IMG/VR virus record: IMGVR_UViG_3300035182_000152
Coordinates: 1-32,081 of that record
Direction: 5' to 3' (one strand)
DNA from: a virus
Length of the DNA: 32,081 nt
Shown one piece after another: positions 1,487 through 25,246 of the stretch (positions within the stretch are counted from its first letter, which is position 1; each line of letters begins with the position of its first letter). Below the pieces are notes generated by a model that was given only the letters and a program-made list of their open reading frames with translations, searched no databases and was not told the origin of the DNA. The position numbers and the translations under genes are program-made.

Positions 1487-2050
1487 ATGAACTCTGGAAT
1501 CTATAAACTAACATTTAAAAGTGGCAAGTACTATATTGGCAAAAGTAATAATATAGATCGTAGGTGGAAAGAACACCACGATAAATTTAATCGTGGGAAA
1601 GCTGCTACTCGTATGCAGCAAGAGTTTAATAGGTATGGTATGCCTAAAGGAGAGGTTTTACTATATTGCCACGAAGATCATATAGATATTATGGAAGCTT
1701 TGTACATTCATAGTAATTGGGGACCAAATATACTAAATAGTACCCACCCTATTACAGTTAGCCAGAGTGATTATAATGCTTTAGTTAAACACCCAGAGCT
1801 ACTAAACTATAGTACTGCCTCACACTGTCTAACCATTTATAATAATGCAATAGAGATACGCGATTTAAAGAAAGAATTAGAAAATACTAATAGAGAGTAT
1901 AAGAGAAAAATAGCAAATATAGTGCCAGGCACAGCATTACAAGAATCTGAAGATCTAGTATCAGAACTTGAATCAGAAGTACTAGATCTAAAGAGAGAGT
2001 TACGTAAACTTAAATCACGTAACTGGTTTGAACGTCTTTTTAACTTATAG
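1487..2050 (+). CDS. GIY-YIG endonuclease with C-terminal coiled coil
   Basis: The 187-residue protein opens with GIY at residues 4-6 and YIG at 16-18, then conserved arginines (R25-R26), a catalytic-type glutamate near residue 70 (IMEALYI) and an asparagine pair near 81-84. This is the standard order of the GIY-YIG fold, a single-metal nuclease that cuts DNA. The C-terminal third (about 120-180) is rich in Glu, Lys and Leu with heptad-like spacing, suggesting a coiled coil in place of a usual DNA-binding domain. It lies 12 bases after terL and is co-directional. It may be a free-standing homing endonuclease or a packaging-linked nuclease, and I cannot tell which. Confidence 0.85.
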   Translation: MNSGIYKLTFKSGKYYIGKSNNIDRRWKEHHDKFNRGKAATRMQQEFNRYGMPKGEVLLYCHEDHIDIMEALYIHSNWGPNILNSTHPITVSQSDYNALVKHPELLNYSTASHCLTIYNNAIEIRDLKKELENTNREYKRKIANIVPGTALQESEDLVSELESEVLDLKRELRKLKSRNWFERLFNL

Positions 2051-2059
2051 GAAAAATAT

Positions 2060-2113
2060 ATGGCATGTAGACCAAAACCAGATAAGAATCCAACTCCTAA
2101 GCCTAAGAAGTAA
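2060..2113 (+). CDS. 17-residue Lys/Pro-rich micropeptide (putative)
   Basis: A tiny frame, ATG at 2060 to TAA at 2111-2113, encodes a peptide with one Cys, five Pro and five Lys plus an Arg. It is preceded by AGGA at 2049-2052 with a 7-base spacer, a good ribosome binding site that overlaps the stop of the GIY-YIG gene. The intrinsic terminator begins directly after it. Very short basic peptides near terminase genes are known in phages, but I know of no assigned function, and translation here is inferred from the ribosome site and position only. Confidence 0.5.
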   Translation: MACRPKPDKNPTPKPKK

Positions 2114-2116
2114 ATG

Positions 2117-2150
2117 AAAACCGCTAACTATTAATAGTTAGCGGTTTTTT
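2117..2150. terminator. Bidirectional intrinsic terminator
   Basis: A perfect 10-bp stem (2121-2130 with 2135-2144) encloses a TTAA loop. It is preceded by AAAA and followed by six T, so it can terminate RNA in both directions. It sits exactly between the convergent ends of the packaging operon and the minus-strand endonuclease gene. Confidence 0.92.
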
Positions 2151-3594
2151 ATTTTAATACCCAAACATCATTACCACAGTCAAATACTCTATAGTATCCA
2201 GCCTCTTTCATTATCTCTACTTCAGTCATCTCCTCCTTATATACCTCAGGAAATAGTTCCTTTAATTTATGTTTTTGACACTGATACCTAGACAAGGATT
2301 TAAGTCCTCTATAGTACCTATAGTTAGGAGCAGAAGTGTGTAGGTACTCAAATCCTAGTTTTTTATATAGGGCCCCAGTACTCCAGCGCCTATCACTATA
2401 GCTAATAATAGATCCTTTATGCCCCTTAATAAAGTACTTTAGTAGCTTAGAAGCCCCACCTACTACAGTTATATCTAGTAAAGAACAATAACGAACTAAT
2501 TCATAGTCGTACCCTTTAGTAAACTTGGGAGTACTAAAGGTCATGACTGCAACTAATTCATCATAGTAAAATAGTCCCAAATTTATAGAAGAGGGAGAGC
2601 CAGCACCCTGTATATGGTTAGCCTCTAAAAACTCTCGGGGAAATCCAATTTCTTTTACTATGCATTTACGTGCACCTATCTGATCTGTACTACCTAGTAT
2701 AGATTTAATTCGGGACTTTACTATATCTTGTTTATTAATCCATTCATCTTCATTAATATGAATTAATTGGTATCCAAAATTCTCTACACCTATAGTCTTA
2801 TCAAGATGATACCTACTGCCTTTAATTTCCTCTCTATGATGGTATACCCCATTAAACTCAAAAGCCAACCCAAGATCTGGCAGAACAATATCTATCTCTT
2901 TACCTTCTAAGATATCTCTATCCCCCGAAATCACCCATCCAGAGTATATTGACTTTATATAGGTAAGTAACTCAAGTTCCTTATTAGAAGTATTAGGATT
3001 ACACTGAGGGCATATACTAGAGTCACCCCGTTCTAGTATATTATTAGGGCGTACCTGTGTAGTATGATCACAGGTAGTATACCCTATCTGAATAAGCTCC
3101 CTACTATGGGTATACTCAGATAGCACTTTAACAGTGGGGTATAGTAAAGATAAATCTGCTATAAATTGTTCAGTACTCTTCTTTCTAGTTATAGCTGGTG
3201 TACATTTTCTACAAATACTGCCTATTTTCTGAGTAAGAAAATTATCAGGGATTATACTCCAAGTATTATGACAGTCATTACATTCAACAAGTATTGAAGT
3301 TTTAGCATTTATATACTTACCTACCACTTTAATATTGGGGGTAATAGTAGCTACTTCTTGCTCAAATTGTTCCTGCGTTTTCTTATTATAAACCTGAACT
3401 GGATTACATATCCTACATGTACTTCCAGTACCCTTACTTTTTAATCTATCTGGCACTATCTCCCACTCATGACCACAAGCCCCTTTAACTAACACTTTAC
3501 TTTTAGCATTAATATATTCCCCTACTACTAATAAGGTAGGATGAGTTATACGCATATACTCCTTAAATTTATTGCTATTTATACTTGTAATCAT
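2149..3594 (-). CDS. Homing-type endonuclease: three zinc-ribbon repeats, Vsr-like/EDxHD nuclease, C-terminal GNAT-like domain
   Basis: This 481-residue protein likely binds DNA and makes a site-specific cut to copy its own gene. Three related repeats of about 60 residues (roughly 8-65, 76-134, 143-200) each end in a CxxC pair, like DUF723-type treble-clef units. A Vsr/EDxHD nuclease core follows: acidic E206-E208, D235 in EIDIVLP, and EFNG..HH at 246-252, then LIHI.EDEW near 278-285. The last 180 residues match the conserved tail of such phage proteins, with NHIQG, LVAVMTF, VVGGASKLL and SYSDRRWS motifs and a GNAT-like look. The start at 3594 is preferred over 3633 because AGGAG lies 8 bases upstream of it. 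It opposes all surrounding genes and has its own promoter. Confidence 0.85.
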   Translation of the reverse strand: MITSINSNKFKEYMRITHPTLLVVGEYINAKSKVLVKGACGHEWEIVPDRLKSKGTGSTCRICNPVQVYNKKTQEQFEQEVATITPNIKVVGKYINAKTSILVECNDCHNTWSIIPDNFLTQKIGSICRKCTPAITRKKSTEQFIADLSLLYPTVKVLSEYTHSRELIQIGYTTCDHTTQVRPNNILERGDSSICPQCNPNTSNKELELLTYIKSIYSGWVISGDRDILEGKEIDIVLPDLGLAFEFNGVYHHREEIKGSRYHLDKTIGVENFGYQLIHINEDEWINKQDIVKSRIKSILGSTDQIGARKCIVKEIGFPREFLEANHIQGAGSPSSINLGLFYYDELVAVMTFSTPKFTKGYDYELVRYCSLLDITVVGGASKLLKYFIKGHKGSIISYSDRRWSTGALYKKLGFEYLHTSAPNYRYYRGLKSLSRYQCQKHKLKELFPEVYKEEMTEVEIMKEAGYYRVFDCGNDVWVLK

Positions 3595-3615
3595 ATTTAT
3601 TCTCCTATTTATATT

Positions 3616-3644
3616 ATTATAAAATAAAAACAAGTAAAAGTCAA
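3616..3644 (-). promoter_or_regulatory. Sigma70-type promoter for the minus-strand endonuclease
   Basis: Read on the minus strand: TTGACT (3644-3639), a 17-base spacer, then TATAAT (3621-3616), 22 bases before the endonuclease start at 3594. The -10 box is perfect consensus and the -35 differs by one base. Confidence 0.85.
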
Positions 3645-3681
3645 GACTAAATTTTATGGCCCAGCATAAAAAATTTTATCC

Positions 3682-3710
3682 TTGACTTATGCTTGCATCT
3701 ATGAGATAAT
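3682..3710 (+). promoter_or_regulatory. Sigma70-type promoter restarting the late operon
   Basis: TTGACT at 3682-3687, a 17-base spacer and GATAAT at 3705-3710, about 30 bases before the HNH gene. The -35 is embedded in TTATCCTTGAC, a context nearly repeated at the two other plus-strand promoters of the window. It lies back to back with the minus-strand promoter at 3616-3644. Confidence 0.85.
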
Positions 3711-3740
3711 ATCCTATAAATCAAAGATAAGAGCTTAAAA

Positions 3741-4166
3741 ATGGCATCTAATACAGGAGCTAACAAACGTATTCCGGTGAAGTGGATTAGAGACGGAGCT
3801 AAAGCCGCTTATATTAAGCAACCAGCCTGCCAAATATGCGGGTCAACAGAAGATTTAGAGCTGCATCATACTAATTCAGTAACTCTAATGCTAGAAGCAT
3901 GGGTAAAGAAAACTGGGTATAGTATTGAAACAGACGAGGATGTGCTAGCAATTAGAGACGAGTTTATAAACACCCATTACTCACAAATGTACGATCAAGT
4001 GTACACCCTTTGCAATACTTGCCATGTTAAATTACATGGAGTATTTGGAAAGGCACCGCCGCTTAATACGGCATCTAGGCAGAGTAGATGGATTAGTTTA
4101 CAAAAGGATAAGTTCTCAGGTGTAGCACCCGAAAAGAAGGCCGGAGCCTTTAGCAATTTCTACTAA
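3741..4166 (+). CDS. HNH endonuclease
   Basis: The 141-residue protein has CQIC at about 30-33, the LELHHTNS histidine pair near 39-46, and a second CNTCHVKLH motif near 91-99. Together these form the zinc-bound beta-beta-alpha-metal HNH fold. Small HNH nucleases beside terminase and portal genes are common in HK97-like phages, where some (HK97 gp74) are needed for packaging, so this may be a structural-operon nuclease rather than a selfish one. It lies 9 bases before the portal gene and is the first gene after the 3682 promoter. Fold is well supported; a role in packaging is inference from position. Confidence 0.88.
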   Translation: MASNTGANKRIPVKWIRDGAKAAYIKQPACQICGSTEDLELHHTNSVTLMLEAWVKKTGYSIETDEDVLAIRDEFINTHYSQMYDQVYTLCNTCHVKLHGVFGKAPPLNTASRQSRWISLQKDKFSGVAPEKKAGAFSNFY

Positions 4167-4175
4167 AGGAATACT

Positions 4176-5366
4176 ATGAGTTGGTGGAATCCAATCAGCT
4201 GGGTTAAATCTAATCCCGCTCAAGAAATTATTGCATGGTCAGAAGGTAGTAATGTACCTTCTGACTCAAGTGTTACATACGCGCAGGCACACGATAAATT
4301 AGAAAGTGTTAACCGAGCCGTTAATATGGTAGTTAGTGCCTGCGCTAGCTTAGACTATGATGTTAAGGATAAAGCAGTAGATGGAATAGTAGCAGGTGTA
4401 AAACAAAAAACCCTAGTTAATCTATTAAACTTTAGACCTAACCCGCATCAATCAACACAAGAATTCAGAACGCACATATTCACAGACTTCATTTTAGAAG
4501 GTAATATATTTATCTACTACGATGGAGTCTACATGTATCATCTACCAGCTAATAAAATGGTAGTACTACCAGACCCTAAGACATTTGTTAAAGGTTATAC
4601 ATATAATAATATAACTAATTTTAAGCCCGATGAAATTATACATATTAAGGAGATTAGTAGTACTTCCGTGTATAGAGGTTCTAGTAGATTAATGGCGGCT
4701 GATAGAACAGTTAAAACCCTTTATCGTATGCAAGCTTTTCAGGATCAGTTCTTTGAGAATGGAGCTGTAGCAGGTCTAGTAATTGAAACTGATAATACTC
4801 TTAGCCAGATTGCTAAGGATAGAACAATCCAGAATTGGATCTCTAAATATAGTGTAAAGAATGGTGCTAGACGCCCCATGATACTTGATAGTGGGTTAAA
4901 ACTAAAGAATATTGGCGAAGCTAATTTTAAAGATATGGACTTCGACAACTCTATTAGAACTCACGATATTAAAATTTTATTAGCCCTAGGAGTACCTGAG
5001 GTACTTATCTATGGTGGAAATAATGCCAATATCTCCCCAAATTTAAGGCTATTCTATTTAGAAACAGTCTTACCAATTGCACGTAAATTAGTATCTGGAG
5101 TTGAAAGATATTTTGGATATGATGTTGAAGTAGTAACTACAACAGTATCAGCGTTACAGCCAGATATCAAAGATATTGCAGCGTATCATAGCTCTTTAGT
5201 AAATGGAGGTATTGAAACACCGGCAGAAGCTAGAGAAGCATTACGCCTAGAAAAACTCGCGGGTACAGATGAGATAAGAATCCCAGCTAATATAGCCGGT
5301 TCAGCAGTAAATCCAGGAGTTGGTGGTGCACCTCCTAGTTCTAATGAAGACGACTCAGCACCGTAA
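4176..5366 (+). CDS. Portal protein (HK97 family)
   Basis: This protein forms the dodecameric ring at the capsid vertex through which DNA passes and to which the neck attaches. The 396 residues are of ordinary length. Family-like segments include VNRAVNMVVSACASL near 46-60, the LEGNIFIYYDG strand near 108-118, the HIKEIS turn before the stem region, the long helix with YRMQAFQDQFFENGA near 180, and LLALGVPEVLIYGG before the crown. AAAGGA lies 5 bases before the start. The gene sits between the HNH gene and the fused protease-capsid gene, 9 bases from each, as expected for a head operon. The C-terminal 20 residues are Gly/Pro/Ser-rich and probably disordered. Confidence 0.93.
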   Translation: MSWWNPISWVKSNPAQEIIAWSEGSNVPSDSSVTYAQAHDKLESVNRAVNMVVSACASLDYDVKDKAVDGIVAGVKQKTLVNLLNFRPNPHQSTQEFRTHIFTDFILEGNIFIYYDGVYMYHLPANKMVVLPDPKTFVKGYTYNNITNFKPDEIIHIKEISSTSVYRGSSRLMAADRTVKTLYRMQAFQDQFFENGAVAGLVIETDNTLSQIAKDRTIQNWISKYSVKNGARRPMILDSGLKLKNIGEANFKDMDFDNSIRTHDIKILLALGVPEVLIYGGNNANISPNLRLFYLETVLPIARKLVSGVERYFGYDVEVVTTTVSALQPDIKDIAAYHSSLVNGGIETPAEAREALRLEKLAGTDEIRIPANIAGSAVNPGVGGAPPSSNEDDSAP

Positions 5367-5375
5367 AGGAGTATT

Positions 5376-7310
5376 ATGAAGGTAACTGATAAGATTTTAT
5401 ATCTTACCTCTCAGTTTAAGAAGGATATGCCTCTGCCAAAAGCAGGAGACACCATTGATTCTATCAATATCGAAGGGTACGCAAATACTACTAGTGTAGA
5501 TAGAACTGGCGATATTATCCCAATGCCTGCTTGGAATACAGCACTTGAAAACTACTTAAAAAATCCTATTATTTTGGCTTATCATGATCACGATGAGCCA
5601 ATTGGTAGAATGGTAGATTATAGAGTGGATGAGCAGGGTTTATGGGTTAAGGCACGTATTTCAGCAGCTGCTGAGGATGTTTTTAACTTAATAAAAGATG
5701 GTGTACTAACCGCATTTAGTGTTGGATTCATCATTAAAGATGCTATGTATGATTCTGTAACAGACTTATTTATTATCAAAGAGCTAGAACTTCTAGAGAT
5801 CTCGGTAGTATCAGTCCCAGCAAATCAAGATAGTATATTTAGTCTTTCCAAGTCATTTGAAACTGACGAGGATTATAGTAAATTTAAAAGTCAATTTGCA
5901 GCGAAAAGCGAATCAGCTAAAAGGCTAGAGTCCTCAGAGCCAAGCAAAATTGACCCAATTAAAAAGGAATGGAATATGGATCCAAAAGAATTAGAATTAA
6001 TGCTAGCTAAAGCCGCAGAAGATGCTGCAACCAAAGCAGTAGCTGCTGTAACTGAAAAAGCATTGGCTGAAAAAGCAGCTGCTGAAAAAGCAGCTAAAGA
6101 AGAAAAAGAAATAAGTGATAAGATTGCTGCTGCTGTTAAAGTGGGCCAATCAGGTGCAGAAAAGCTTCTTACAGATATCGAAGCACGTATTGCTGCACAA
6201 GAGCAAGCATCCAAAGATGCCCTAGCTGGTCTTGAAGCAACAATTCGTGAAAAGACAGAAGAACTTGCCGCTATCCAAAAAAGCAAGATGAACTTCTCTG
6301 ATAAAGATGCTGGCCAAGCTACTACATATGAAGAACGTGAAAAGGCAGTTCTTGCTGCAAAAATCATGGGTAAATCATTGGATGGTACTAAGTTTGGTCG
6401 TAGTATTATTGAAAAAACCGGTGCTCATGAAGCTTCTGCAACATGGGAACTAGAAGTTTCTCTAGCAATGGAATCGGAAATTCGCCGTCGTTTAGTTATT
6501 GCTCCTCTGGTCCGTCAGATCGCAATGCAAACCAACGTTATGACTATCCCAGTTAATCCAGAAGCAGGTCTAGCAACTTGGATGGCTAATAGCTCATTCG
6601 GTACTACTGCATCTGCTGGTGTTGCTCAAGTTCACCAACTAAAAGAAATTACATTGAATGCATATAAAGTTGCTACAATGGAATATCTGGCATACGAAGA
6701 AGAAGAAGATTCACTACTTATACTGCTACCAATCATCCGTGATGCAATGATTCGTCGTGTAGCCCGTGCCGTGGATAAGGCATTTGCTCTAGGTGCAGGT
6801 TCTGGTGCTGATCCAGTTAAAGGTATGGCTCTATATGACGCAACCTCAGTTGTAACTCCTACCAGTACTGGTGCAGCAACTATTGCTAACCTACGTGCAC
6901 TACGTAAAGATCTAGGATATTGGGGTCTTGATCCAGCCGAATTAGTTTATGTCGTTTCTACTGAAGTGTACTATGATCTTCTTGATGATACTTCATTCCA
7001 GACAATGAATCAGGTCGGTGTTCAAGCAACTCTACTAACAGGTCAAGTAGGTTCAATTGGTAATACTCCAGTTCTAGTTTCTGACGCTTTCCCATCCAAA
7101 ACTGGTGGTACTGCATCCGCAACTACTAATATTGGTGCTTTCTGTATTGCTCCAGCAAACTTTATCGCAGGAAATCAGCGTGGTCTACGTTTCGATACAC
7201 AAGATCTAGTTGAAACCCAACGTAAAGTTTTAGTAGCTTCTCTACGTACTGGTATGACTCAATTGTCTACAGTCAATGGTATGGGTATTTCTACTCTACG
7301 CTGGTCATAA
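5376..7310 (+). CDS. Fused prohead protease (S78) and HK97-fold major capsid protein
   Basis: Residues 1-155 form an HK97 U35-type serine protease: H70 in LAYHDHDEPIG, S115 in LTAFSVGF and an acidic position in the LLEISVVSVPAN segment (about 139-149). A linker leads to an Ala/Glu/Lys-rich coiled coil at about 203-305, matching the removable delta/scaffold domain. From about 310 to 644 is the HK97 capsid fold, with the E-loop region near TWELEVSLAMES and the C-terminal VLVASLRTGM strand. In most phages these are two genes. Codon use shifts from AGA/ATA-rich in the protease to CGT/GGT-rich in the capsid, fitting higher expression of the second half. Cleavage near residue 305 is inferred. Confidence 0.92.
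   Translation: MKVTDKILYLTSQFKKDMPLPKAGDTIDSINIEGYANTTSVDRTGDIIPMPAWNTALENYLKNPIILAYHDHDEPIGRMVDYRVDEQGLWVKARISAAAEDVFNLIKDGVLTAFSVGFIIKDAMYDSVTDLFIIKELELLEISVVSVPANQDSIFSLSKSFETDEDYSKFKSQFAAKSESAKRLESSEPSKIDPIKKEWNMDPKELELMLAKAAEDAATKAVAAVTEKALAEKAAAEKAAKEEKEISDKIAAAVKVGQSGAEKLLTDIEARIAAQEQASKDALAGLEATIREKTEELAAIQKSKMNFSDKDAGQATTYEEREKAVLAAKIMGKSLDGTKFGRSIIEKTGAHEASATWELEVSLAMESEIRRRLVIAPLVRQIAMQTNVMTIPVNPEAGLATWMANSSFGTTASAGVAQVHQLKEITLNAYKVATMEYLAYEEEEDSLLILLPIIRDAMIRRVARAVDKAFALGAGSGADPVKGMALYDATSVVTPTSTGAATIANLRALRKDLGYWGLDPAELVYVVSTEVYYDLLDDTSFQTMNQVGVQATLLTGQVGSIGNTPVLVSDAFPSKTGGTASATTNIGAFCIAPANFIAGNQRGLRFDTQDLVETQRKVLVASLRTGMTQLSTVNGMGISTLRWS
5961..5978 (+). promoter_or_regulatory. 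Internal ribosome binding site and start for scaffold plus capsid alone
   Basis: AAAAAGGA (5961-5968) stands 7 bases before an in-frame ATG at 5976 (residue 201 of the fusion), exactly where the protease linker ends and the coiled-coil delta domain begins. Starting here gives a 444-residue delta-capsid protein free of protease. Confidence 0.6.
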
Positions 7311-7322
7311 GTAATAAAAGTT

Positions 7323-7345
7323 GAGGGCCTAGGCCCTCTTCTTTT
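7323..7345 (+). terminator. Intrinsic terminator after the capsid gene
   Basis: The palindrome GAGGGCCTAGGCCCTC (7323-7338) folds into a GC-rich 6-bp stem with a CTAG loop and is followed by TTCTTTT. It lies 13 bases after the capsid stop. The interrupted T-run suggests partial read-through to the connector genes, which show no promoter of their own. Confidence 0.75.
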
Positions 7346-7375
7346 ATAAGGGTTTAATGAACCCTTATAAAAGAA
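7339..7375 (+). repeat. Perfect 16-bp inverted repeat downstream of the terminator
   Basis: The 16 bases at 7339-7354 are the exact reverse complement of 7360-7375 with a TAATG loop between. The left arm includes the T-run of the preceding terminator, so formation of this hairpin may compete with or modify termination, or make an RNA processing site. Confidence 0.8.
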
Positions 7376-9849: not shown

Positions 9850-11331
9850 ATGGCCTATAATTTAGCCCGTAATTCACGCGTGTTTGTTACTACAAACTTA
9901 AATACCGCTACTGGGGCAGTTCTAACAACTGGTCTTAGTACTACCAATACTTGGGAAGTTCAAGTATTAGATGGTTTTAAGTTTGCTCAGGCAACAAACT
10001 CTGCAAATATTCAAATCAAAGAAGGTGGAAATACACCTATTCGTGGTCAGCGTGCATTTAATACTGCTCTTAATCCGGTAGATATTACATTCTCTACATA
10101 TATGCGTCCACGTTTAAGTGGTGGACTAGTAACTGCTGAAGAACGCGTATTGTGGAATGCCCTAATGGGGGCAGTTGGTATTGACGGAACGGTTCAAAAT
10201 GGTACAGCAGTAGCTGGTGTAACAGTAACTGGTACTACTTTAACTGCACTTACTCGTTCTTCTACAACTTCATCTGTAGTTACTATGGCAGGTGCAACAA
10301 TTACTGCAACTGGTCTAGCACTTAATGAAGTTGTAAGTATTACTGGTATGACTGGTACAGGTGCTTCTTACTGGAACCAACCCGCTAAAGTTACTTCAAT
10401 TGCTGCAGGTGCAATTGTATTTACATATATTACAGCTCCAGATGCTGCTGCAGGCACTACTTCTGCTGGTGTACCTGCTTCAGGTCAGATAATTCTGAAA
10501 CGTGGTGCATGGGTTGAATACCCAACTGCAACTGGTGTACCTACATCATACGCGCAACTTACAAGTGGTACATCTAATAAGAACCAAATGCAACCAATCG
10601 GTTTTATCTTTATTGTAGATAGTACAGCATATACTGTAGATAACTGCGCTATTGATCAAGCTCAAATTGACTTTGGTCTTGACGCTATTGCAACGATAGC
10701 ATGGACTATTAAAGGTACTAAGCTTAATCAGATAGCTATGCCAGTACTGTCAGCAACAGCCGATCCTGTATTTAGTGGTTCCTTAACAGGTACTGCAACA
10801 GGTAAGATCACTACAGCTAACTATATTACTAATAAGCTATCAACTGTTTCTCTACAAAGCAACCTTGGTGGTATTGGTGGTACGGTATATGCAGTAGTTA
10901 TTACCGGTGGTAGCATGACCATTGCAAATAACGTTACTTATGTAACACCTGCAAATATTGGTGTACTAAATACTCCAATTGGTTATTTTACTGGTACTCG
11001 TGCAATCTCCGGCAACGTAACAGCATATCTGAAGTCTGGCTCAGGTTCACATACTGGTACGCTACTGAATGATATCCTAGTATCATCTGCAACTAATACT
11101 GATACTAAATATCATATGCAAATAGAGGTTGGTGGTGCAACTGCGGGTACTCGTGTAGAACTAGAAATGGATGGTGCTATGCTTGGTATCCCTTCTGTAG
11201 ATATTGCAGATGTTGTATCTACAAGTATTACGTTTACTGCACAGGCTGCACAATCTGATATCGGTGCAGCAAATGCCCAATACGATATTGAGAATACAAA
11301 CGAACTATTAGTTCGCTACTACTCTCTGTAA
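9850..11331 (+). CDS. Major tail tube protein
   Basis: The 493-residue protein is rich in Thr, Gly, Ala and Val, predicted all-beta, and ends with NELLVRYYSL. The start has AAAGGA 8 bases upstream. Codon use is of the highly expressed type (CGT, GGT, GGTAAC-like), as for the capsid. N-terminal WEVQVLDGFKFAQATNSANI and the following ITFSTYMRPR fit tail-tube strands. Residues about 120-210 look like an inserted Ig/FCCH-like module, and a second beta unit fills the C-terminal half. The size approaches that of T5 pb6, which also has two tube domains per chain. The place between the tail terminator and the chaperones is classical. The domain split is inferred. Confidence 0.8.
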   Translation: MAYNLARNSRVFVTTNLNTATGAVLTTGLSTTNTWEVQVLDGFKFAQATNSANIQIKEGGNTPIRGQRAFNTALNPVDITFSTYMRPRLSGGLVTAEERVLWNALMGAVGIDGTVQNGTAVAGVTVTGTTLTALTRSSTTSSVVTMAGATITATGLALNEVVSITGMTGTGASYWNQPAKVTSIAAGAIVFTYITAPDAAAGTTSAGVPASGQIILKRGAWVEYPTATGVPTSYAQLTSGTSNKNQMQPIGFIFIVDSTAYTVDNCAIDQAQIDFGLDAIATIAWTIKGTKLNQIAMPVLSATADPVFSGSLTGTATGKITTANYITNKLSTVSLQSNLGGIGGTVYAVVITGGSMTIANNVTYVTPANIGVLNTPIGYFTGTRAISGNVTAYLKSGSGSHTGTLLNDILVSSATNTDTKYHMQIEVGGATAGTRVELEMDGAMLGIPSVDIADVVSTSITFTAQAAQSDIGAANAQYDIENTNELLVRYYSL

Positions 11332-24192: not shown

Positions 24193-24758
24193 TGGGGCCA
24201 TATCAATTATTAGATGAAGGTGTATTCGACCTATCATCAAAAACTATAATAAAAAGAGGCCAGCCAGGATGGTCAGATTACCAGACCTGGCTGACTCAAG
24301 GAGGAGTCCTTCTACCGAAGGACTCCCTTGGTCAGCTAGATCTAGTAACTGCTAAAGCCAATAGGACTGCTGAGATTGATTCATACGCTGCATCACTAAG
24401 AAATAAAATCATTGCTGGGCGTAGTGCGGGGGAAATGGCTGCTTGGACAATTAAACTATTCGATGCAATGGCAGTACTAGCTGCTCAACCTAGCCCATTT
24501 ACTCCAATCTTAGCAACTCTGCGAACTACTTTAGGTTTACCAGTAACACCTAATAGTTATAATCATGCTATTGCCATGATTAGAGGTATTACAGAAACTG
24601 AACATGCTACCAAAGTTGTAACTCAAGCAGTGCCATTCCTAGCAGCCGAAGCCGCAATTGATGGTACTAGAGGTAAGCACAATGATGCAATTAATGCAAT
24701 GTTAACAGTACCAGAAATAATTACTTATGATTGGTCTGTAGGATGGCCAGCTTTATGA
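24192..24758 (+). CDS. Tail fibre accessory protein (DUF4376-like, putative)
   Basis: The 188-residue protein begins in a TAATG overlap with the short upstream frame. Its N-terminus (YQLLDEGVFDLSSKTII, then W.DYQTWLTQGG) matches the pattern of tail fibre-adjacent proteins such as assembly or attachment chaperones. The remainder is helical, and the end (HNDAINAMLTVPEIITYDWSVGWP) resembles the DUF4376 tail. It probably supports fibre assembly or attachment; this is inference from pattern and place. It overlaps the next gene by an ATGA, so production of the hydrolase is coupled to it. Confidence 0.6.
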   Translation: MGPYQLLDEGVFDLSSKTIIKRGQPGWSDYQTWLTQGGVLLPKDSLGQLDLVTAKANRTAEIDSYAASLRNKIIAGRSAGEMAAWTIKLFDAMAVLAAQPSPFTPILATLRTTLGLPVTPNSYNHAIAMIRGITETEHATKVVTQAVPFLAAEAAIDGTRGKHNDAINAMLTVPEIITYDWSVGWPAL

Positions 24759-25246
24759 AATATATAGAGTATAGATCTAAAATTAAATCAGGTGACTTGC
24801 TAGCTTGGAGTCATAGATCTTGGAAAACTTGGTACGATATTAAAATACAACTAGTACGTATCTTTACTCAATCCGAGTATAGCCACGTAGGAGTTGCATG
24901 GGTATATCAAGATAGAGTATTTGTTATTGAGTCTGTTACCCCATTTGTACGCATTGTACCACTTAGTAATTTACTACCATGCTATGTTATTAGCATGAAC
25001 TTAGCATGGAGTAAAGAAACAGAAAACTTAGCTGTGGGGATGGTGGGCAAAGCCGGGTATTCACAGTTAGAAGCAATAAAAGCTTATTTTGGTAAAAATA
25101 AAGACCCTAATGCTTGGGAGTGCGCTGAGTTTGTACAAAAAATATACCATTCAGAAAATATTAATCTAGATTGTAGAGATGTACCAGCTGATCTAGTATT
25201 AGCAGCCCAGAAAAGGTTTGGTCCCACTGTATACTTAGAGGAATAG
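24755..25246 (+). CDS. Permuted NlpC/P60-like (YiiX/YebB-type) hydrolase
   Basis: The 163-residue protein has SGDLLAWSH at 12-20, a histidine in EYSHVGVAW (H44), an acidic position in VFVIES (E59) and a cysteine in WECAEFVQ (C123). His before Glu before Cys is the order of circularly permuted papain-fold enzymes such as YiiX/YebB, which act on peptidoglycan peptides, lipids or amides. The start at 24755 (ATGA overlap) is preferred to 24731, which would run deeper into the preceding gene. No gpK-like tail hydrolase is seen between the tape measure and the hub, so this may be the tail-associated hydrolase, or part of lysis with the two membrane proteins that follow. No signal peptide is visible. 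Confidence 0.72.
   Translation: MKYIEYRSKIKSGDLLAWSHRSWKTWYDIKIQLVRIFTQSEYSHVGVAWVYQDRVFVIESVTPFVRIVPLSNLLPCYVISMNLAWSKETENLAVGMVGKAGYSQLEAIKAYFGKNKDPNAWECAEFVQKIYHSENINLDCRDVPADLVLAAQKRFGPTVYLEE

Follow-up and report, generated by a model that had tools for sequence, protein, structure and literature searches.

In phage T5, the capsid protein pb8 bears an N-terminal scaffold domain that is cut by the protease pb11, and the particle is built from 775 capsid subunits (PMC5292684). Mu and related phages are known to have nested scaffold starts within their protease genes, and in gene 27 of the Mu-like Pseudomonas phage PaMx73 a nested in-frame start at Val177 is associated with the Shine-Dalgarno (SD) sequence ACGAGGA (PMC4378225). 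In addition, protease, scaffold and HK97-fold capsid are reported to be encoded together in a single open reading frame (ORF) in actinophage clusters EE, AN, AM/AU and EL, in PAJU2 and in Nocturne116 (PMC7302621, PMC5513430, PMC8306868), and according to PMC8306868 the PAJU2 fusion has been proposed to undergo autocatalytic cleavage. Such a fusion looks paradoxical, in that it implies one protease per capsid subunit, or hundreds per particle.

The window analyzed here, a stretch of 32,081 nt, is a genome fragment of an uncultured tailed phage known only from metagenomes, and it encodes a terminase, a portal, a protease-capsid fusion gene, a head completion protein and tail genes. An earlier note on this DNA had proposed that the fusion gene contains an internal start yielding a second product in excess, an interpretation that is supported by the sequence comparisons described below. 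The features of the gene and its flanks are as follows.

5365..5371, plus strand: SD AAAGGAG of the long product (anti-SD duplex -8.2 kcal/mol)
5376..7310, plus strand: fused ORF of 644 aa, S78 prohead protease, delta domain and HK97/T5-type major capsid (PF04586 and PF05065 matches)
5457..5843, plus strand: Peptidase S78 domain, residues 28-156, with low-expression codon use (Pfam, codon statistics)
5898..5975, plus strand: disordered linker, residues 175-200, containing the nested SD (pLDDT <50 at 175-202)
5961..5968, plus strand: nested SD AAAAAGGA, core AGGA at 5965-5968, the core kept in 157/157 relatives
5976..5978, plus strand: nested start codon ATG, Met201, a Met in 242/242 distinct relatives
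5976..6401, plus strand: delta (scaffold) domain, about residues 201-342, with long helices at 203-253 and 261-307 (AlphaFold2 model)
5976..7310, plus strand: predicted nested product, a delta and capsid precursor of 444 aa with high-expression codon use, which aligns with separate T5-like capsid ORFs
7323..7346, plus strand: intrinsic-terminator-like hairpin GAGGGCCTAGGCCCTC followed by TTCTTTT, 3' of the capsid gene

Profile searches with Pfam placed PF04586 (Peptidase S78) on residues 28-156 of the fused ORF (65.5 bits, cutoff 21) and PF05065 (Phage_capsid) on residues 367-609. The nearest solved structures to the capsid part are the T5 and DT57C capsids, as are the best sequence matches, and in the predicted model this part has the HK97 fold of the T5 type with an N-terminal helical delta domain; the end of the mature capsid was placed by aligning the fused protein with T5 chain 5tjt_A. 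The AlphaFold2 model, for which the alignment input comprised 60 relatives, has very low confidence at residues 175-202, indicative of disorder, followed by delta helices from 203 and then the capsid fold, so that Met201 lies at the end of the linker, directly ahead of the delta/scaffold helices. As the S78 domain ends at residue 156 and the delta helices begin at 203, the position claimed for the nested start, at the protease/delta boundary, is borne out.

Several other elements of the window were recorded. The GC-rich hairpin and T run at 7323-7346 coincide in position with an annotated terminator of the phage Sugarland, and perhaps reduce expression of later genes. The terminase-portal interval (1487-4166) holds a GIY-YIG nuclease ORF (1487-2050), a minus-strand ORF of 494 aa with a CapR-homology domain (2149-3633) and an ORF of 141 aa with Cys/His pairs resembling an HNH nuclease (3741-4166), which together look like a mobile nuclease gene cluster inserted into the head operon. 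Near the tail genes, the ORF at 24731-25246 has a match just below the cutoff to a C92 permuted papain-like amidase, possibly a lysis or cell-wall enzyme. RNA families and tRNAs were found nowhere in the 32,081-nt window.

A conserved ribosome-binding signal at the junction

The SD and in-frame ATG lie exactly where the earlier note had put them: AAAAAGGA is separated from the ATG by a 7-nt spacer (5969-5975), and the ATG shares its frame with ATG 5376 and, read through to the stop, gives 444 residues. Measured against the full anti-SD, the aligned spacing is 5 nt. Among the 17 internal in-frame ATGs of the gene, ATG 5976 has the best SD energy and is the sole one with an SD match of at least 5 nt at start-site spacing. 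In the window and in other KEW-type relatives, an out-of-frame ATG (5969-5971, GGAATGG) directly follows the SD core and opens a frame of about 13 codons; it is an unlikely start, sitting too near the SD.

Six scans of IMG/VR with differing seeds recovered 433 loci whose protease and capsid share an ORF, which correspond to 242 distinct genes and 157 relatives less than 90% identical to one another (pairwise identity median 60%, minimum 44%). Met201 and AGGA at start-site spacing are present in all 157 of these non-redundant fused relatives, and the site is equally invariant at stricter redundancy cut-offs (97/97 at 80%, 43/43 at 70% and 26/26 at 65%). Of six peptide seeds used in the first scan, one spanned the junction (IKKEWNMD), which is a source of bias; the five further scans were seeded solely on capsid or protease, and the site was found in 112/112 representatives from outside the junction-seeded scan. 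As evidence against a nested start, the earlier note had named in advance any fused close relative without the ribosome site; when this comparison was run, SD or ATG was lost in 0/157. The signal is also specific to this position, as the fraction of genes with an SD is 1.00 at Met201 versus 0-0.6% at ten other columns with >50% Met, and over 626 codon columns the median is 0 and the highest value more than two codons from the site is 0.28.

The T5-like arrangement, with a stop between protease and capsid, was not seen among the IMG/VR loci, which have a single ORF except for L284, and none of the 433 loci with both domains is a true split form. In L284 an in-frame TAG (about 2443-2446) falls within delta, downstream of the nested start, on which ground the locus was rejected as a split relative; the TAG may reflect a sequencing error or a broken gene. 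No prophage relative appeared in a scan of genome contigs, and no member of this fused gene family was found in a cultured phage.

The residues that encode the AGGA vary considerably. Its 157 carriers comprise AAG-GAA (Lys-Glu) in 127, nine of which have one extra codon ahead of the ATG, GAG-GAA (Glu-Glu) in 23, AGG-AAA (Arg-Lys) in three, AAA-GGA (Lys-Gly) in two, and CAA-GGA (Gln-Gly) and AAG-GAT (Lys-Asp) in one each, so that AGGA is constant over the peptides KE, EE, KD, KG, QG and RK. It is carried in three registers, with AGGA-to-ATG spacings of 7-10 bases. Parsimony on a tree from which the junction was excluded gives at least 21 changes of junction type, with AGGA preserved in all of them. 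Similarly, the Lys of column 197 is encoded by AAG in 125/125 cases, versus 41% of Lys codons overall, and the next highest AAG share among 35 conserved Lys columns is 86%. When synonymous codons were redrawn 1000 times, AGGA occurred in a mean of 49.8 and a maximum of 66 of the 157 genes, versus 157/157 observed. Judged from these alignments, it is the nucleotide motif, not the peptide, that is under selection at the junction.

Codon usage, local folding and alternative readings

The note had also described a switch in codon use at the nested start. In the window alone the switch is weak (t of about 2.1-2.35, best break at residues 189-197), and because of this a pooled test was carried out on the 157 relatives, in which the switch proved real, with a change point at residue 202. 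For this test, codon preferences were learned solely from residues 20-150 and 420-644, and Lys and Glu were excluded. In the pooled data all 20-residue bins before 201 are protease-like and all bins after 201 are capsid-like; AGA and AGG make up 55% of Arg codons in residues 1-170 versus 2-4% in residues 231-644, and ATA makes up 23/96 Ile codons in residues 171-200 versus 1/93 in residues 201-230. Fitted on AGA, AGG and ATA alone, the break falls at 198-199, differing by 5.9 log units from 201. Rare codons are commoner before Met201 in 153 of the 157 genes.

The RNA around the nested start is unusually unstructured (-4.3 versus a gene mean of -11.0 kcal/mol). The anti-SD energy of the nested site, -6.2, is close to that of the tail-tube-like gene at 9850 (-5.6), and the upstream SD is on average somewhat the stronger of the two in the fusion genes (mean best -7.8 versus -6.4 kcal/mol). 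Because the upstream SD is stronger, an excess of the short form is suggested by codon use and local structure, not by SD strength, and the codon break and low local folding serve as indirect proxies for it.

A separate internal promoter, from which the nested product would mainly be made by initiation at 5976 on a shorter message, would also explain the codon break, and one weak promoter-like match lies at 5857-5884. With the sigma-70 consensus, the only one searched, promoter matches near the nested start do not exceed shuffles (10 sites versus 12.3 expected), and we regard this arrangement as unlikely; it is moreover compatible with initiation at 5976 and no substitute for it.

It is still less likely that only the 644-aa polyprotein is made, with a self-cleaving protease, a protease:capsid ratio of 1:1 and KE-W-N-M acting as a cleavage or structural motif. 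The fusion is indeed one open frame, the K-E peptide is common at the junction, and autocleavage of the long form may occur additionally. However, the peptide varies while AGGA does not, and a polyprotein predicts equal ribosome traffic on either side of residue 201, yet codon use breaks there.

That AGGA is an interdomain elongation pause site without a start appears highly improbable: its location in a linker at a domain boundary would suit a pause, but pausing needs no ATG, yet Met201 is kept in all 242 genes while the preceding residues vary; the spacing to the ATG is held; weak local folding is a usual mark of start sites; and the codon break and the alignment with a separate capsid start would be left unexplained.

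Origin of the predicted nested start and a proposed two-product mechanism

The closest cultured relatives of the gene are T5-like phages (Demerecviridae), about 37-40% identical. Across the eight annotated T5-like phages compared, a gap of 2-17 nt separates the protease gene from the neighbouring capsid gene, and in every one of them the start codon of the capsid gene falls within 1-3 alignment columns of Met201. An SD-like GGAG or GGAA occurs in the protease-capsid gap of Sugarland, Eos, BF23, D254 and Proteus M4H10_20, and the split genes have a codon contrast between protease and capsid similar to that of the fused gene. By its aligned position, the predicted nested start corresponds to the ordinary capsid gene start of T5-like phages as its homologue. 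Most simply, an ancestor would have lost the protease stop codon, or the change would have run in the opposite direction, the capsid start being retained either way.

The homologous start and similar codon contrast of the split genes would also be expected if SD, ATG and codon break were disused leftovers from the recent joining of two T5-like genes, which is highly improbable, since the relatives are too diverged for an unselected AGGA, AAG wobble and codon break to survive everywhere, AGGA is kept through K-to-E and register changes, and none of the 157 fused relatives lacks the site.

Very probably, then, one message gives both a 644-aa protease-delta-capsid and, through the nested start, an excess of a 444-aa delta-capsid with which the minor long form co-assembles. 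Ribosomes starting at 5376 would make the long chain, and those starting at 5976 the short one, the equivalent of T5 pb8 or of the HK97 gp5 precursor. A few long chains would co-assemble with short ones through the common delta-capsid part, and the protease would thus enter the procapsid at a low ratio. The incorporated protease would then cut the delta domains, as pb11 does in T5, and presumably also free itself. Initiation at 5976, the long/short ratio, co-assembly and cleavage are what we infer from the sequence. The fusion paradox would thereby be resolved with one 4-base signal, and a route for the protease into the procapsid is suggested, namely as a covalent passenger on shell subunits. 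The earlier note had likened the nested product to those of nested scaffold starts; the in-frame nested start stands, but what it is predicted to yield is the precursor of the capsid, comprising delta and the entire capsid domain, and no separate scaffold. Nested in-frame starts are known for scaffolds, and it is a new and well-supported reading that the nested product of the window gene would be the capsid itself.

Comparison with other fusions and known systems

An SD and ATG are also found at the junction of all the other protease-capsid fusions that were inspected, which come from cultured phages: in Microbacterium cluster EE (Alucard Met166, Naby Met161 and Exiguobacterium phiExGM16 Met165), in Arthrobacter phages Decurro (AN, Met160) and Circum (AM, Met165), in Microbacterium cluster EL (Camille Met171, Count Met254), in Pseudomonas PAJU2 (Met197, AGGAGG) and in Lactococcus Nocturne116 (Met145). 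Ranked by SD among all internal ATGs under one scoring scheme, the junction ATG is first in nine of ten fusion genes and second in Circum. The chance of its being first in six independent lineages is 1/17 x 1/4 x 1/5 x 1/16 x 1/12 x 1/11, or about 1e-6, an estimate in which AM and EL are taken as one lineage, Camille as representative is favourable relative to Circum, and the junction was identified partly by eye. The fusions of EE, AN, AM/AU, EL, PAJU2 and Nocturne116 share layout and junction signal with the window gene but have little or no sequence similarity to it.

In Count, the prolate-headed member of cluster EL (L495), residues of about 170-270 form tandem modules resembling EVxxSLxxEQKxVVxxxxGEAL around the nested start.

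The available portions of the descriptions of these cultured-phage fusions make no mention of an internal start (PMC7302621, PMC5513430, PMC8306868), and a keyword search of the literature for internal translation in fused genes gave no match, though an earlier report for such a fusion may exist. We consider it likely, with less confidence than for the window gene, that tailed phages that fuse the maturation protease to the capsid generally keep or re-evolve a ribosome start at the junction, giving two products and a minor protease-capsid chain in the shell. If so, fusion "polyproteins" would be a two-product system, the DNA-phage counterpart of Gag/Gag-Pro, and the major capsid form would be absent from present annotations of such genes. 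Most interesting of all, the signal recurs in unrelated lineages, and this is testable in the cultured Microbacterium, Arthrobacter, Pseudomonas PAJU2 and Lactococcus phages that carry the junction signal.

Among known systems, T5-like pb11 and pb8 resemble the window gene in their scaffold-bearing capsid, but there are two genes in those phages and one ORF here. The SD and start codon within a longer ORF, conserved in 157/157, are those of a nested in-frame start of the lambda C/Nu3 and Mu I/Z kind; the nested product is not a separate scaffold protein, so that the window gene is a variant of the protease/scaffold pairs and does not itself belong among them. Mu I/Z and PaMx73 gene 27 likewise place an SD and in-frame start inside a protease gene to yield an assembly protein, but in those phages a scaffold alone is made from the nested start and the capsid has its own gene, whereas the nested product of the window gene would be the capsid precursor. 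In lambda C/Nu3, the long form combines protease and assembly domain and the short in-frame form is the assembly domain; the lambda capsid gpE has a separate gene, and the lambda protease belongs to a different family from that of the window. The long/short in-frame logic is thus common to both, while the separate capsid and the other protease family set lambda apart.

In retroviral Gag/Gag-Pro-Pol and herpesvirus UL26/UL26.5, a minor long form brings the enzyme into the particle via a shared assembly domain. The lambda protease-scaffold fusion is noted in PMC5513430, and the Gag logic is described in PMC5009743. In the retroviral and herpesvirus systems the ratio is set by frameshift or readthrough or by a nested transcript, whereas in the window phage it would be set by an internal bacterial ribosome start.
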